A stretch of 64,000 nt of DNA from Mycobacterium sp. Root265. GTDB lineage: Bacteria > Actinomycetota > Actinomycetes > Mycobacteriales > Mycobacteriaceae. Positions 20,107 through 26,865 of this stretch are shown here, one piece after another. The stretch lies in the NCBI RefSeq assembly GCF_001428895.1, contig NZ_LMJA01000022.1:125369-189368 (forward strand), in the 5' to 3' direction. How positions within the stretch are numbered: the stretch's first letter is position 1; each line of letters starts with the position of its first letter. A model generated the notes under the pieces. That model was not told the DNA's origin. It did not search any database and saw nothing but the letters and a program-made list of their open reading frames with translations. Made by a program: the position numbers and the translations under genes.

Positions 20107-21639
20107 CTAGGCCAGGGACGCCTGGTTGATGCCGTCCTCGGTGGACTTCACCTCGATGCGCGCCCCCAGCGGATCACCGTCGGACATCAGCGCCACCAGC
20201 GCTTCGTCGGTGCTCAGCGCCATGAACCGGGAGTTGTCGGCCTCCAGCCGGCCGATGATGACGCCGGTGGTCTCGGGCCAGTCGTAGCGCACCGAGTACG
20301 TCTCGATGACGCCTGTGCCGTCGGCGTCGCGCGTGACGGGCACCGTGGGCAGCGCGGCAATCTCGGCCTGCCGCGCCTTGCTGTCGTCGGCTTTCCACTC
20401 GGCGGGTGTGGTCGAGTACACCCCGACCGAATACTTGCTCATCACACCACCGTTGGCGCCGACGAGGCCGAATGCGCCCGGCTGGGCCCGCATGTGGGCG
20501 ACCGTCTCGGCGATGCCATGGACGGAGTAGCTGTTGCCCGGGCCGCCGAAGTACGGAAGCCCGCCGGTCAGGGTGAGGCCGCGCGGATCATCGGTCGCCA
20601 GCCCGGTCGAATCGCAGACGGAGAACACCGGGAACGGGAAGCAGCTGTACAGGTCGAAGGTGGACACCTCGGCCAGGCCTATTCCGGCCACCCGAAGCGC
20701 CTCTGCCACAGCTTTTTCCGCAGAGAAGCTGGCGCTGAGGTCCTCCCGGTCGAGCAGCTGCTGCTCCACCATGTCGGCGTGGCCGTGCAGGTACACCCAT
20801 TTGTCCTCGGGCACCGATAGTCTGCGGGCCGCGGCCACCGACATGATCAGCACGGCGGCACCCTGGTTCACCTGATCGCGGGCCACCATCAACCGCGGGT
20901 AGGGATCGCAGATCATCCGGTTCTCGGCGGTCACGGTGAGCAGTTCGTCGACGGAGCGTTGCACCGGAGACGACGACAGCGGGTTCCGGGCGGCAACTTC
21001 GGAGAACGGCGCGAACAACTCGGCCATGTCTCGGCGGTAGTCGTCCACCGTCGCGCCGAGGCGGGCCCGGCGCGCATTGTCCAGCAGACCGTATTGCACC
21101 GGCGCACCGGTCAATCCGTGCTTGGCGGTGTACTCGTTCATGTACTGATCGAAGCCGTACCCGCGGTCCTCGAGTTGACCGCCAACCTGTTCGGAGTGAT
21201 CGGGTAAGGCATCACGGCCGGCGAAATAGCGCAGCGTGGAACCGTTCTCGGAGCCGAGCACCAGCACCACCTCGGCATCCCCGGCCGCGATGGCACCGGA
21301 GAACTCGGTCACCACCTTCTGCGATCCGTGCCCGCCCAGCGGTTCGAGCACCGCGCGGGCCGGGTCGGCGCCGATGCGGGCGGCGACCGAACGCGGGTAG
21401 TTGTCCGAGCACCCCAGCGGCGCTTCGGAGAACGGTGTGCAGATCTCGAACTGCCGGAGCGCGACGAAGACCTCGATCGCCTCGGCCACCGCGGATACGT
21501 CGGCGCCGGTGTCGGCCAGCGCGGCCCGCACCGCCTCGGTGGCCAGCTCGACCGACGACATCCCTCGATAGTCCGGCGCGTCGACGCGCTCGGTGAACTG
21601 TCCGACACCGACGATCACCGGCGTACGCGGATCCACCAT
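20107..21639 (-). CDS. Thiolase-superfamily protein annotated as acetyl-CoA acetyltransferase, atypical active site
   Basis: A 510-residue thiolase-fold protein of the SCP-x/Rv1867-like type. Recognisable parts are PVIVGVGQFTERV, NRMICDPYPRLMVARDQVNQGAAV, FDLYSCFPFPVF and GGLPYFGGPGNSYSVHGIA. Where true thiolases carry the nucleophilic Cys in an SGCSSG-like turn, this one reads GGHGSQ (102-107) with no Cys, so ordinary Claisen thiolysis is doubtful. The start is well supported: AGGAGG at 21646-21651 sits six bases before the ATG. It is transcribed divergently from the ATPase module. Biological role unknown. Confidence 0.75.
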   Translation of the reverse strand: MVDPRTPVIVGVGQFTERVDAPDYRGMSSVELATEAVRAALADTGADVSAVAEAIEVFVALRQFEICTPFSEAPLGCSDNYPRSVAARIGADPARAVLEPLGGHGSQKVVTEFSGAIAAGDAEVVLVLGSENGSTLRYFAGRDALPDHSEQVGGQLEDRGYGFDQYMNEYTAKHGLTGAPVQYGLLDNARRARLGATVDDYRRDMAELFAPFSEVAARNPLSSSPVQRSVDELLTVTAENRMICDPYPRLMVARDQVNQGAAVLIMSVAAARRLSVPEDKWVYLHGHADMVEQQLLDREDLSASFSAEKAVAEALRVAGIGLAEVSTFDLYSCFPFPVFSVCDSTGLATDDPRGLTLTGGLPYFGGPGNSYSVHGIAETVAHMRAQPGAFGLVGANGGVMSKYSVGVYSTTPAEWKADDSKARQAEIAALPTVPVTRDADGTGVIETYSVRYDWPETTGVIIGRLEADNSRFMALSTDEALVALMSDGDPLGARIEVKSTEDGINQASLA

Positions 21640-21712: not shown

Positions 21713-21722
21713 GTTGTACAAC
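21713..21722. promoter_or_regulatory. 10-bp palindrome upstream of ATPase promoter
   Basis: GTTGTACAAC is a perfect palindrome ending four bases before the -35 hexamer of the ATPase promoter, followed at once by the imperfect repeat TTGATTGACGTACATCAA (21723-21740), which covers that hexamer. The position suits a regulator of the ATPase genes or of the divergent thiolase-like gene. Confidence 0.4.
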
Positions 21723-21726
21723 TTGA

Positions 21727-21754
21727 TTGACGTACATCAACACGAGCGTATGAT
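21727..21754 (+). promoter_or_regulatory. Leaderless promoter of the ATPase module
   Basis: TTGACG (21727-21732), a 16-base spacer, then TATGAT (21749-21754): a near-consensus SigA promoter. The ATG begins at 21761, six bases after the -10, so transcription most likely starts at or next to the A of the ATG and the mRNA is leaderless. Confidence 0.7.
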
Positions 21755-21760
21755 TGTCTG

Positions 21761-22897
21761 ATGAATTGGACCGCCCGGCCGATGTCCCTGGTGGTCGGAG
21801 GCGTGGTGCCGCCGGAGAACGTGGTCGGCCGCGTCCGCGAAGAGCAGGAGATCCTGTCCAGCCTGGCCCACGGCGGTGCGGCCCTGGTCGGCGACCGCCG
21901 CCACGGTAAGACCTCCCTGGCCCGCCTGGTCGCCCACACGGCGCGGCAGCGCGGGCTCACCGTGGTCTCGGTCAGCGCCGAACGCCAGACCTACGCCGAA
22001 TTCGTCACCGCCCTGGCCGGCGAACTCGGCCGGATCGACAGCGCCTTGCGCCAGGAGGTCGAGCGCTGGAAGGTCGCGTTCGGCACCGGGCCGGTGCGTT
22101 TCGAACGCGCCCAGGCCGGGGCCGCCCTCGACGATCTGCTGCAGCGCGCGGTCGCCCGGGCCCGCAGCGGGCCCCTGGTGCTGTTCATCGACGAGGTGAC
22201 CGTGCTGGCCCGGAATCTGGAGCGGGAAGGCGCCAGCGGTGGTGATGCCTTCCTGCACCTGCTGCGGCGATTCCGGCAGGACAACACCGGGCGGCTGGCC
22301 ACCGTGCTGTCCGGGTCCATCGGCTTTCATCACGTCTCCGGCGACGCCCTGAGTTCGGTCAACGACATCCGCAAGGTCACCGTCGGCCCCATCCGCCATG
22401 ACCACGCCACCTACCTGGCCGAGTGCCTCATGCTGGGCGCCCGGGTCGACGGCACCGATGCGCACCTGGTCGCCGAGTCCATCGCCGCCACCGCCGAGAA
22501 CGTGCCGTACTACATCCAGCATCTGGTCGCGGCGTCCGCGCGCACCGACGGCCCCGTCCGCCCCGGCGACATCCCGGCGCTGCTGCGGGCCGCGGTGACC
22601 GACCCCCACGATCCGTGGGATCTGCGCCATTACCGCGACCGCTTGCGCAACTACTACGGCGACGACGCCGCGGCCATCGCCAACCTGCTGGACATCTACG
22701 CGCACGCGGCGGGACCCGTCAGTGTCGACACCGTGGCACACCTCCTGCGTTCAGAGGGGTCCACCATCGGCGATCGCGACCAGTTGGTGTCGTTCATCGA
22801 ACGCCTGGAGCAGGACCACTATCTGCGCCGGGCCGGCGACGAGGACTGCTTCGCATCGGGATTGGTGCAGTCCGCCTGGCTGGCCATGCGGAGGTGA
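21761..22897 (+). CDS. P-loop (AAA/STAND-like) ATPase A of a two-ATPase module
   Basis: A 378-residue soluble protein. VVGRVREEQEILSSL introduces a P-loop domain with Walker A GDRRHGKT (Gly44-Thr51) and Walker B VLFIDEV (Asp144-Glu145); VLSGSIGFHHV is a sensor-like strand. This is the layout of archaeal-type/STAND and Cdc6/Orc-like ATPases. The C-terminal third (from about residue 270) is helical and may be a winged-helix or helical bundle (HAAGPVSVDTVAHLLRSEG, IERLEQDHYLRRAG). There is no toxin or transmembrane domain. It overlaps ATPase B by four bases (GTGA), so the two are made together. I do not recognise a characterised homologue; regulatory or signal-sensing function is inference. Confidence 0.7.
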   Translation: MNWTARPMSLVVGGVVPPENVVGRVREEQEILSSLAHGGAALVGDRRHGKTSLARLVAHTARQRGLTVVSVSAERQTYAEFVTALAGELGRIDSALRQEVERWKVAFGTGPVRFERAQAGAALDDLLQRAVARARSGPLVLFIDEVTVLARNLEREGASGGDAFLHLLRRFRQDNTGRLATVLSGSIGFHHVSGDALSSVNDIRKVTVGPIRHDHATYLAECLMLGARVDGTDAHLVAESIAATAENVPYYIQHLVAASARTDGPVRPGDIPALLRAAVTDPHDPWDLRHYRDRLRNYYGDDAAAIANLLDIYAHAAGPVSVDTVAHLLRSEGSTIGDRDQLVSFIERLEQDHYLRRAGDEDCFASGLVQSAWLAMRR

Positions 22898-23964
22898 CGG
22901 TGAGCATCCTCTTCTCCCCCGGCACCGTGGACCCCGGTGAACTGGATGCCCGCACCGTCGGGCGCCGGCCCCTGCTCGAGCGACTCACCGACCGGATCGT
23001 CTCGGCCGCCCGCGACGGCTCGCGGCCGCACACCTTGCTGATCGGTCCGCGCGGCAGCGGTAAGACGCACACCGTCGCGGTGGCGGTGCACCGTGCACTG
23101 TCCGACACCGCCACCGCCGAAAGCGTGCTGCCCCTGCGTCTTCCCGAGGACGCACTGGCGATCGGTCACTACGGCGACCTGCTCGTCGAGCTCATCCGGC
23201 CCTATCGACCGCAGGCCGGCGCGCTGCGCACCGAGGTGATCGAACTGGAGCGGGTGATCCTCGACATCGCCGACGGCAGGATGGTGCTGCTGGTCATCGA
23301 GAACCTGGACCGGGTGTTCGACGCGATCGGCGAATCCGGCGCGGGCAGCCTGCGCGCCTGGATCGAAACCTCCACGGCGGTATCGATTCTCGGCACCGCT
23401 CCGGCACTGTTCCCCGGCGTCGCGTCCCGCGCCCACCCCTGGTACGGCTCGTTCATCATCGAGGAACTCGACGATCTCACCGCCGCCGAGGGCGCCCAGA
23501 TCATCGCCCGCAACCCCGCGCTGGCCGACTACGTCGGCACCCCCGAGGGACTGGCCCGGCTGGAGTCCATCTACGAATTCGCCGGGGGTTCGCCGCGGTT
23601 GTGGCAGACCGTCGCCGAGACCGCGGATGTCGCCGACCTGTCGGCGCTGGAGCCCGCCAAGGCCGTACTGCTGGACCGGTTGTCACCGGCATACCAGCAG
23701 CAACTCTGGCTCCTGCCCGCCGGCGAGCAGCGCCTGGTGGTGGAGCTGGCCCGCGGGCCCGGAGCCCGCACGGTCACCGATCTCGCTGCCGCGGTGGGTG
23801 TTTCGAACCAGTCGGCGGCCGCGGCGCTGGGGCGGCTGGCCGCGGCACGCTGGGTGGACTCCGCCAAATCCGCTATCGGCGACCGGCGCGCCACCTGGTA
23901 TGACCTCACCGATCCCCTGGTCCGTCACATCATCCGGTACCGCGAGGGCACCCATCTCACTTGA
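22894..23964 (+). CDS. P-loop ATPase B with C-terminal MarR-like winged helix
   Basis: A 356-residue protein. TVGRRPLLERLTDRI precedes Walker A GPRGSGKT (Gly51-Thr58). The Walker B strand is LLVIENLD with Glu136-Asn137 in place of the usual Asp-Glu, and SILGTAP resembles sensor 1. Residues about 285-345 form a probable winged helix (ELARGPGARTVTDLAAAVGVSNQSAAAALGRLAAARWV), so DNA binding is likely. GTG 22894 (coupled) or GTG 22900 can be the start. Two identical palindromes lie 6-45 bases past its stop, before the peptidase gene; the winged helix is a candidate reader of them, which is inference. Confidence 0.7.
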   Translation: MTVSILFSPGTVDPGELDARTVGRRPLLERLTDRIVSAARDGSRPHTLLIGPRGSGKTHTVAVAVHRALSDTATAESVLPLRLPEDALAIGHYGDLLVELIRPYRPQAGALRTEVIELERVILDIADGRMVLLVIENLDRVFDAIGESGAGSLRAWIETSTAVSILGTAPALFPGVASRAHPWYGSFIIEELDDLTAAEGAQIIARNPALADYVGTPEGLARLESIYEFAGGSPRLWQTVAETADVADLSALEPAKAVLLDRLSPAYQQQLWLLPAGEQRLVVELARGPGARTVTDLAAAVGVSNQSAAAALGRLAAARWVDSAKSAIGDRRATWYDLTDPLVRHIIRYREGTHLT

Positions 23965-23970
23965 CGGTCT

Positions 23971-24009
23971 TGTCACTTAGTGACACTGTGGAGATGTCAC
24001 TTAGTGACA
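23971..24009. promoter_or_regulatory. Two identical 15-bp palindromes upstream of the S9 peptidase
   Basis: TGTCACTTAGTGACA occurs at 23971-23985 and 23995-24009 (7-bp perfect arms, one central base; the following CT is also shared), 24 bases centre to centre. They fill the gap between the ATPase B stop and the peptidase start at 24030, as expected of a double operator. Confidence 0.7.
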
Positions 24010-24029
24010 CTCCATCGAGAAAGGACCTC

Positions 24030-25898
24030 GTGACCGACACGACGCACACCCCCGCGATCATTTCCGTCGAGGACTTCTTCAGCCCGCCCGAACGCGCCGG
24101 GGCCACGATCTCCCCGGACGGCACCCGCATCGCCTACCTCGCCCCGTGGCGGAACCGCCTCAACGTGTGGGTGCAGGACGTGGACGGTGAGCAGGAGCCC
24201 CGCTGCGTCACCGCCGACGAGACCCGCAGCGTGTACTTCTACAGCTGGACCCACGATTCGCGGTGGCTGCTGTACATGCAGGACAGCGGCGGCGACGAGC
24301 ACTGGCACGTGTACCGGGTGGACCCGGACGCGCCGGGCACCCCGGCCGTGGACCTCACCCCGTTCCCCCGGGTGCGCGCCTCCTACGAACTGCTCAAGGC
24401 CCGTCCCGGCAAGGCACTCGTCCAGCACAACGCGCGGAACGCCGAACTGGTCGACGCCTTCGAACTCGACATCGCCACCGGTGAGCTCACCCTGCTCGCC
24501 GAGAATCCCGGCACCGTCGTCAGCTGGATCGGCGGGCCCGGCGGTGACCTGTTCACCAATACCCTGACCGCCGAAGGCGATGTCGAGATATCGCAATGGG
24601 ATTCGGCCACCCAGACGTTGCGGCCCATCCGGGTGTACGAGGGCAGGGACTATCCGCTGGGCATCCACCCCGTCGCCGTCTCCCCCGATGGCACCGGCAT
24701 CTGGCTGGGCTCCTATCAGGGCAGCGACCGGCTCCGGCTGGCCCGCGTCGACGTGGCCACCGGGGAGGAGACCGAGGTGCACAGTCACCCGACGCTCGAC
24801 CTCGGCGCGCAGTTGGTGCTGCCCTCACCGTTCATCATCAGCGAGCGGACCGGGGAGTTGATCGGCGCTCGCTATTACGGTGAGCGACAGGTGATCCACG
24901 CCCTCGACGACGAATTCGCGGAGGTATTGCAGGCACTCACGAAGCTGTCCGACGGTGACCTGGCCGGCATGTCCTGCGATGACAGCGGGCAACGCTGGGT
25001 GGTCAATTTCAGCCATGACCGCGATCCGAACGTCACGTATTTCTACGATCATGGGACCGGTGCGAGCCGACTGTTGTTCCGGCCCTACCCGCATCTGGAT
25101 CCCGCCGCGCTGGCCGAGATGAAACCGGTCACCGTCACCGCACGCGATGGGCTGGAGCTGCATTCGTATCTGACGCTGCCCGTGGGCGTGCCGCCGGAGA
25201 ACCTGCCGCTGGTGCTGCTGGTGCACGGCGGCCCGTGGTCGCGGGACTGTTGGGGCTATCAGCCGGACGTGCAGCTGCTGGCCAACCGCGGATATGCGGT
25301 GCTGCAGGTCAACTTTCGCGGATCCACCGGCTACGGGAAGTCGTTCACCCAGGCCGCGATCGGCGAGTTCGCCGGCAAGATGCACGACGATCTGATCGAT
25401 GCGGTGGACTGGGCGGTCAAGCAGGGCTTCGCCGACCGGGACCGGGTGGCCATCTTCGGCGGCTCCTACGGCGGATACGCCACCCTGGTCGGTGTCACGT
25501 TCACCCCGGACGTCTTCGCCGCGGCCATCGATTACGTCGGGATCTCCAGCCTGCCCAACTTCATGCGCACGCTGCCCGACGTCGGCCGCCGGTTCCTGGC
25601 CAACAACTGGAACCTCTACGTCGGCGACCCGAAGGATCCCGCACAGGAGGCCGATATGTTGGCCCGCTCGCCGATCACCCGGGTCGATCAGATCCGCACC
25701 CCGCTGCTGGTGGTGCAGGGCGCCAACGACTCTCGCGTGGTGCAGGCCGAGTCCGACAACATGGTTGCGGCCCTGCGCGATCGTGGCGTCGAGGTCGAGT
25801 ACATGGTCAAGGAGGACGAGGGACACGGATTCCTCAACCCGGACAACAACATCGACATGTACCACGCCGTGGAGAAGTTCCTGGCCAAGCACCTGTAG
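24030..25898 (+). CDS. S9 family prolyl-oligopeptidase-like serine peptidase
   Basis: A 622-residue enzyme with an N-terminal seven-bladed beta-propeller (residues about 20-360, opening ATISPDGTRIAYLAPW) and a C-terminal alpha/beta-hydrolase domain. The triad is visible: Ser479 in GGSYGGYAT, Asp567 in GANDSRVV and His599 in EGHGFLN. Such enzymes (acylaminoacyl-/dipeptidyl-peptidase-like) cleave short peptides. No signal peptide, so cytoplasmic. The start is GTG 24030 with GAAAGGA just upstream; an in-frame TTG at 23961 would place the palindromes inside the coding region. The double palindrome suggests its own regulation. A strong terminator follows. Confidence 0.88.
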   Translation: MTDTTHTPAIISVEDFFSPPERAGATISPDGTRIAYLAPWRNRLNVWVQDVDGEQEPRCVTADETRSVYFYSWTHDSRWLLYMQDSGGDEHWHVYRVDPDAPGTPAVDLTPFPRVRASYELLKARPGKALVQHNARNAELVDAFELDIATGELTLLAENPGTVVSWIGGPGGDLFTNTLTAEGDVEISQWDSATQTLRPIRVYEGRDYPLGIHPVAVSPDGTGIWLGSYQGSDRLRLARVDVATGEETEVHSHPTLDLGAQLVLPSPFIISERTGELIGARYYGERQVIHALDDEFAEVLQALTKLSDGDLAGMSCDDSGQRWVVNFSHDRDPNVTYFYDHGTGASRLLFRPYPHLDPAALAEMKPVTVTARDGLELHSYLTLPVGVPPENLPLVLLVHGGPWSRDCWGYQPDVQLLANRGYAVLQVNFRGSTGYGKSFTQAAIGEFAGKMHDDLIDAVDWAVKQGFADRDRVAIFGGSYGGYATLVGVTFTPDVFAAAIDYVGISSLPNFMRTLPDVGRRFLANNWNLYVGDPKDPAQEADMLARSPITRVDQIRTPLLVVQGANDSRVVQAESDNMVAALRDRGVEVEYMVKEDEGHGFLNPDNNIDMYHAVEKFLAKHL

Positions 25899-25911
25899 AC
25901 CCGGAACACGT

Positions 25912-25948
25912 AAAAGCCCCTGGAATCGCAGTGATTCCAGGGGCTTTT
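25912..25948. terminator. Bidirectional rho-independent terminator
   Basis: A perfect 16-bp stem (AAAAGCCCCTGGAATC and its complement) closes a 5-base loop, with A-tract and T-tract at the ends so that it works in both directions between the convergent peptidase and sucD genes. Confidence 0.93.
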
Positions 25949-25962
25949 CGCGTGCTCGGTGC

Positions 25963-26865
25963 CTACAGGCCTGCCAGCAGCTCGCGCGCCTTGGCGGCGG
26001 TCTCCGACGGGGTCTTGCCGACCTTCACGCCGGCGGCCTCCAGAGCCTCCTGCTTACCGGCCGCGGTGCCCGCACCGTCGGACACGATGGCGCCGGCGTG
26101 GCCCATCGTCTTGCCCTCGGGAGCGGTGAAGCCCGCGACGTAGCCGACGACCGGCTTGGTGACGTTGGCCTGGATGTAGGCGGCGGCCTTCTCCTCGGCG
26201 TCGCCACCGATCTCGCCGATCATCACGATCAGCTTGGTCTCGGGATCCTTCTCGAACGCCTCGATGGCGTCGATGTGGGTGGTGCCGATGACCGGGTCGC
26301 CGCCGATGCCGATGGCGGTGGAGAAGCCCAGATCGCGCAGTTCGTACATCATCTGGTAGGTGAGGGTGCCGGACTTGGAGACCAGTCCGATCGGGCCCTT
26401 GCCGGTGATGTTGTTCGGCGTGATGCCGACCAGCGACTCGCCGGGGGTGATGATGCCGGGGCAGTTCGGCCCGATGATGCGGGTCTTCTCGCCCTTCTCG
26501 ACGTTGTAGGCCCACGCATAGGCGCTGTCCTGCACCGGGATGCCCTCGGTGATGACGACCAGCAGCGGGATCTCGGCGTCGATGGCCTCGATGATGGCGT
26601 CCTTCGAGAAGGCCGGCGGCACAAAGGCAATCGACACGTCGGCGCCGGTCTCCTTGATGGCCTCGGCCACCGAACCGAACACCGGCAACTCGATCTCGTT
26701 GCCGTCTTTGTCTTCGTGCTTGACCGTGGTGCCGGCCTTGCGGGCGTTGACGCCACCGACGATCTGGGTGCCGGCCTTGAGCATCAGCTTGGTGTGCTTG
26801 GTGCCTTCACCGCCGGTGATGCCCTGGACGATGACCTTGGAATCCTTGTTCAGGAAGATAGACAT
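25963..26865 (-). CDS. sucD: Succinyl-CoA synthetase alpha subunit SucD
   Basis: A 300-residue TCA-cycle subunit that binds CoA and carries the phosphohistidine. [13 protein letters not shown] is the CoA-binding start; [14 protein letters not shown] and the catalytic [10 protein letters not shown] (His256) are present. It is 14 bases downstream of sucC and shares its operon, as in Rv0951-Rv0952. The strong terminator beyond its stop ends the transcript. Confidence 0.97.

Follow-up and report, generated by a model that had tools for sequence, protein, structure and literature searches.

A portable pair of AAA+/STAND-type ATPases that probably represses its own promoter, and a separate S9 peptidase unit, in Mycobacterium sp. 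Root265

The window analysed here, 64,000 nucleotides of contig NZ_LMJA01000022.1 of Mycobacterium sp. Root265, carries a real, little-described and portable pair of AAA+/STAND-type ATPases, A and B. The promoter of A holds a 16-bp repeat array (GACGTAC...), which is new here and was absent from the original prediction; that prediction had joined the pair and a downstream S9-family peptidase into one three-gene module. The sequence features at the locus are real but the module is not, the locus consisting of two independent units. Judged from the sequence and a structure model, these are likely a self-operated A/B pair and a TetR-repressed peptidase, a reading whose direct basis is conservation, adjacency, co-occurrence, the geometry of array and promoter, and the predicted fold of B.

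In the genome (6.67 Mb, 30 contigs), A, B and the peptidase, all on the plus strand, lie between a thiolase-like gene (20107–21639, minus strand) and a gene which we take to be sucD (25963–26865, minus strand). ATPase A (378 aa; 21761–22897) and ATPase B (356 aa; 22894–23964) share the predicted GTGA overlap, which is real and spans four bases with B read from GTG 22894; an alternative GTG lies at 22900. ATPase A matches Pfam AAA_16 (35.6 bits, cut-off 32.6) and AAA_22, its profile matches archaeal Walker-type ATPases, and the DE of its Walker B motif is invariant in 72 of 72 aligned relatives. B contains the motif GPRGSGKTH, and the Glu-Asn reported for its Walker B is found at that place as IENLD, with EN kept in 81/81 aligned relatives. 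Its AAA_16 match is slightly below the same cut-off (31.8 bits), nSTAND_NTPase5 reaches 21.0 bits against a cut-off of 34, and the window's B stops after a C-terminal winged helix, which had been foreseen and is matched by MarR_2 above its cut-off (28.5 against 27 bits). The predicted structure of B (pLDDT 94.1, pTM 0.85) finds Orc/Cdc6 proteins first among its structure matches, then archaeal ATPases and NLR/CED-4 proteins, and shows the Orc/Cdc6 arrangement of an AAA+ domain followed by a winged helix, so the predicted fold is Orc1/Cdc6-like. As in STAND proteins, this winged helix may have a structural role. In agreement with the original prediction, we consider that B probably contacts DNA.

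Relatives of B were collected by a pattern-based scan of one genome per species (84,980 species), and the best 80 of 142 were kept. Among these 80 the A/B pair is present in nine phylum-level groups, and A, whole or partial, lies directly upstream of B in 78 loci: a match to the A profile stands just upstream in 71, and a weaker or partial A in 7 more. The profile finds nothing upstream of B in the remaining loci, L082 and L127; L082 is nearly identical to L081, which has A, indicating that A disappeared from it recently. Two plasmid copies of B also stand without A, and plasmid records gave B relatives in five cases and A in none. The distances of A and B are closely correlated (r 0.957, 45 pairs, Mantel p 0.0005), and a tree of 60 B proteins needs 10 label changes for the nine phylum-level groups where the minimum possible is 8, so that descent within groups dominates. 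B is rare, occurring in 2/396 genomes of the phylum, the window's own included (in the second, A adjoins two of three B pieces), and in 19 of the 198 genomes of a genus sample (E up to 1e-30). The closest named relatives of B belong to Mycolicibacterium sp. P9-22 (92%) and M. frederiksbergense (90%). In the former, ATPase A (L053:5078–6001) lacks its N-terminal part including Walker A, from which it appears that the pair can decay.

The form of B varies. In 54 loci (L078–L131) its frames, some of them cut by contig ends, extend 68 to 850 residues beyond the core, and TPR_12 is matched in 37 of these C-terminal parts; in the other 28 copies (26 mycobacterial, 2 plasmid) this extension does not exceed 58 residues. 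The short form is no rule of the genus, since L083 in Mycobacterium kyogaense carries the long TPR form. A planctomycete B (L121:5831–9523) has many near-identical TPR units, a sign of recent repeat duplication. As for a conserved third gene, no cluster of greedily called neighbours occurs in more than three of the 54 loci, one three-locus cluster being pieces of A, and the next gene downstream of the pair lies on either strand (21 plus, 22 minus). A solo B relative of the M. avium plasmid pP4-4a (L051:6971–9666) overlaps a serine/threonine kinase gene by four bases, which suggests that the kinase is another partner for B.

Candidate roles of the pair are a sensor switch, a defence system and a DNA-acting complex. 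We regard a STAND-type anti-phage defence pair as possible, if somewhat unlikely: PADLOC gave no strong match (partial matches only, with best E values of 0.0012 for A and 0.00036 for B), no effector domain was recognised and no relative of B was found in the viral-contig and phage collections, while the patchy, rare occurrence described above, the B relatives on mycobacterial plasmids and the TPR tails speak for such a role. The surroundings also argue against it, as few defence-type genes occur among 133 neighbours, counted without a formal control. These 133 remain of 150 neighbours of at least 100 aa after removal of 17 that were short, overlapping or derived from A, with long sequences trimmed to 600 aa; they matched 12 PADLOC families at E 1e-10, of which 7 are methyltransferases, and the matches include, given here without locus assignment, mad3 (3 members), AriA (2), mad8 and PycTIR.

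The repeat array (21713–21754, plus strand), a candidate operator of the pair, comprises three units, GTTGTACAAC (21713–21722), GACGTACATC (21729–21738) and AGCGTATGAT (21745–21754), which cover the −35 (TTGACG) and −10 (TATGAT) boxes of the A/B promoter (21727–21754, plus strand; 16-bp spacer). The start codon of A follows the −10 box by 6 bases, suggesting a leaderless A/B transcript. YGTA cores near −46, −30 and −14 from the A start recur in 26/26 mycobacterial loci (L053, with its A start missing, is left aside), always spaced by exactly 16 bp; a fourth core lies near −62 in ten of them, and the GTAC of the two upstream units is invariant in all 26. Across 400 shuffled sets, the corresponding count had a mean of 0.005 and a maximum of 1.

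In the window's own genome the YGTACANC form of the array, with up to two mismatches, is found solely before A. A looser form (R for A) allowing two mismatches occurs in 150 of the 198 genus genomes, about as often as its reversed control, and so the exact form alone discriminates: without mismatches it marks 20/198 genomes, namely the 19 with B plus G132, and its reversed control none of the 198. The exact array is thus present in 19/19 genus genomes with B and in 1/179 others; the pattern was derived from such loci, B being detected independently. In each of the 19, one array precedes the B match by 1148–1246 bp, a distance close to the length of A; this holds also for G019, where identity to the window's proteins is only 35% for A and 42% for B. 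The locus fetched from G132 (L171) shows a different recurring element of CGTACATCGTACGTAA type, found at similar places in G006, G007, G102, G110, G144 and G185; genomes with this element have no B at E up to 1e-30.

The array extends beyond the mycobacterial copies. A matrix built from 52 mycobacterial units was scanned over both strands of 42 loci of L078–L131 (of 45 with A, L078, L081 and L103 were set aside for starts too near a contig end; the sets of 42 to 54 loci called distant include L083 of M. kyogaense). The best triple of the whole locus falls within 200 bp upstream of A in 36/42, four of these matches (L087, L093, L096, L116) scoring below zero; the misses are L095, L099, L105, where the best array lies further upstream, L107, L125 and L130. 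By a slightly different count, 37/42 loci are hit at period 16, 1 at period 15, 5 at period 17, 23 at period 20, 22 at period 32 and 13 at periods 10 and 12; 30 column-permuted matrices average 8.1 of 42 with a maximum of 23. From 99 units of 33 loci, chosen from 44 for clear arrays, the unit consensus is about GACGTACG(T/A)(T/C) followed by six mostly A/T bases. Loci whose titles name Bacteroidales, Planctomycetia or Acidobacteria, among others, also show a CGTACG-like core. The array was not found in L050 and L051 (plasmids), L097 and L119; contig ends may remove it from L113, L115, L129 and L134. It precedes B in L082 and L127, which have no A, and this points to B as the binder, though the loss of A in L082 is recent.

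Read in this light, A/B is probably an Orc/STAND-like ATPase pair that carries, and represses, its own promoter. Most likely B, alone or with A, would bind the 16-bp repeats, and since these fall on the −35 and −10 boxes, the bound protein should close the promoter, amounting to autorepression. Multimer binding would fit both the 16-bp period and the AAA+ fold. The nucleotide state would decide when the A/B complex releases or changes shape, a decision in which the TPR tail of B may also take part in relatives. Binding, repression and ATP switching, like the trans control of the peptidase treated below, are what we infer from these patterns.

It is unlikely that B acts in some other way and that the binder of the array is A or an unlinked regulator. 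In favour of this alternative, A adjoins B in 78/80 loci, so that linkage hardly separates the two proteins; L127 and L082, however, have B and the array without A, and an unlinked regulator would need co-inheritance in nine phylum-level groups. We are more doubtful of a stricter version of the autorepression reading, in which the pair is an Orc/Cdc6-like two-subunit ATPase that multimerises in an ordered way on the 16-bp repeats of its own promoter, cis-acting and cross-phylum, with its TPR sensor missing in most mycobacterial copies. Its output would be the assembled complex, not a regulon, given that the genome of the window yielded one array. Improbable, in turn, is the proposal that the periodicity is mere promoter conservation, with units resembling −35 and −10 boxes and RNA polymerase as the sole binder: the window's units do overlap TTGACG and TATGAT with their 16-bp spacer, but the invariant GTAC of the two upstream units (26/26), the extra core near −62 in 10/26, the recurrence of CGTACG-like cores in other phyla and the almost perfect marking of B genomes by the exact pattern all tell against it.

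Autorepression by an Orc/STAND-like pair can be compared with several known systems. B shares with the Orc1/Cdc6 initiators (A. pernix ORC2, the S. solfataricus Cdc6/Orc1 heterodimer, ORC subunits) the modelled succession of AAA+ domain and winged helix; unlike them, A/B is bacterial, its top structure matches have 10–15% identity, Pfam ORC-CDC6-like (PF24389) gives B 14.8 bits against a cut-off of 27, and its array is the promoter of the pair's own genes. The archaeal Walker-type ATPases 2qen and 2fna belong to Pfam ATPase_2, for which A and B both fall below the cut-off; we know of no partner or array for these two. The STAND regulators MalT and AfsR have a P-loop domain, like the pair, and a TPR tail, like relatives of B. 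AfsR is reported to bind direct repeats overlapping a −35 element, with enhancement by ATP (PMC10936776). Its DNA-binding domain is a separate one of SARP type, and its repeats, with an 11-bp unit, lie at the promoter of another gene. A/B differs from both regulators in consisting of two ATPases, with a 16-bp spacing and an array at its own promoter.

The S9-family peptidase (622 aa; 24030–25898, plus strand) appears to form a transcription unit of its own. It matches Peptidase_S9 (PF00326; 167.5 bits, cut-off 22.6), the predicted triad is borne out by GGSYGG, GANDSR and GHGF at the usual places (read by eye), and its best start is GTG 24030, not TTG 23961. Assignment as dipeptidyl-peptidase Dpp5 was rejected (NCBIfam NF053518, 118.9 bits against a cut-off of 900). 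The putative promoter (23961–23989, plus strand) has TTGACG at 23961–23966, overlapping the stop codon of B, a 17-bp spacer and CACTGT at 23984–23989. Both palindromes noted after B, TGTCACTTAGTGACA, are confirmed at 23971–23985 and 23995–24009, 24 bp apart, and two such palindromes at up to two mismatches occur in 0/100 shuffles. As candidate TetR operators, the first fills the −35/−10 spacer and enters the −10 box by two bases and the second lies at the expected transcription start. With other spacings, lone operators and repeats removed, leaving 35 distinct loci at 24-bp spacing, the consensus reads TTGACg, operator 1 inside the 17-bp spacer, CACagT and operator 2, so that the layout of these putative elements is the geometry of a repressed promoter. 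The strong terminator reported at the end of the peptidase gene corresponds to a hairpin (25907–25954; −35.7 kcal/mol, z −8.7) between the converging peptidase and sucD, likely a terminator for both.

A third exact palindrome in the genome lies on contig 26, 24 bp from a second one with one changed base, and this operator pair separates a TetR-family gene from a diverging phospholipase-D-like gene. At L019:3617–6225 the latter runs into a gene carrying HEPN/RES N-terminal and RES domains, a toxin-like neighbour that may answer to the same TetR. Among the 198 genus genomes the exact 15-mer palindrome occurs in 52 (reversed control 3), a TetR relative (E up to 1e-50) in 51 and the peptidase (E up to 1e-100) in 69; palindrome and TetR coincide in 50 genomes, leaving G011 with TetR only and G105 and G143 with the palindrome only. 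Both TetR and peptidase flank the operators in 23 of 30 fetched loci (L020–L049), TetR alone in L020, L023, L030 and L034, the peptidase alone in L036 and L049 (the window), and neither in L025. No TetR gene stands between operators and peptidase in the window, L036, L052, L053, L071 and L073, and by coordinates at least seven genomes (G000, G034, G080, G106, G120, G166, G220) have an operator-bearing peptidase with the TetR relative elsewhere; in G166 this distant TetR has its own operator pair. In a tree, the window genome's TetR falls in a group of 13, eight of them peptidase-linked (support 99/98). With the regulator elsewhere beside its own operators and grouped in this way, the peptidase is likely controlled in trans by the TetR-family protein of contig 26, which would repress the peptidase's own promoter at its two operators. 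The candidate operators in the spacer and at the start site, and the regulator gene beside operators and peptidase in those 23 loci, resemble TetR repressors with paired operators; the difference is that regulator gene and peptidase are unlinked here and in some related genomes.

The original prediction held that A/B and the peptidase are an insertion, and they are indeed optional at this site: empty, A/B-only, peptidase-only and combined states all occur. In 26 mycobacterial chromosomal loci (L052–L077), all chosen for B, the peptidase is present in 13 and absent from the other 13, with sucD in the fetched stretch in 26/26 and the thiolase-like gene in 25/26. Sixteen genus genomes that carry neither B nor the peptidase were compared: the neighbour of sucD is the thiolase-like gene in ten and an LLM gene in three, and neither lies within the fetched 1.5 kb in the other three. 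The peptidase adjoins A/B in 8 of the 19 B genomes, lies elsewhere in 8 and is missing in 3 (E 1e-100), and ATPases without peptidase or palindromes are found, the very result that the original prediction had named as its refutation. B co-occurs above chance with the peptidase (16/19 against 53/179) and the palindrome (15/19 against 37/179), an excess that may come from shared kinship. Control of the peptidase by B through binding to the palindromes is almost certainly wrong, for all this co-occurrence, adjacency and the MarR-like winged helix of B: palindromes track TetR (50/51 TetR genomes), 37/52 palindrome genomes are without B, and G027 has A/B beside sucD without palindromes, with palindromes, TetR and peptidase on another contig. 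B as peptidase regulator was rejected on the grounds of co-occurrence and location.

In the open-access literature, among the matches listed, neither the A/B pair nor the two motifs are described in titles and abstract openings; the novelty of the pair rests on this and on Pfam, NCBIfam and PADLOC, where it is matched weakly or not at all. Operators usually drift fast. The CGTACG-like core and its 16-bp spacing are kept in groups as far apart as Bacteroidota and Actinomycetota, and the pair thus seems to move together with its own DNA site. The array thereby offers a sequence tag for finding the pair, and the binding, stoichiometry and purpose of an Orc-like bacterial pair become directly testable. 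In the peptidase unit, a regulator gene has become separated from its target with both operator pairs retained, a situation that helps to assign orphan regulators.
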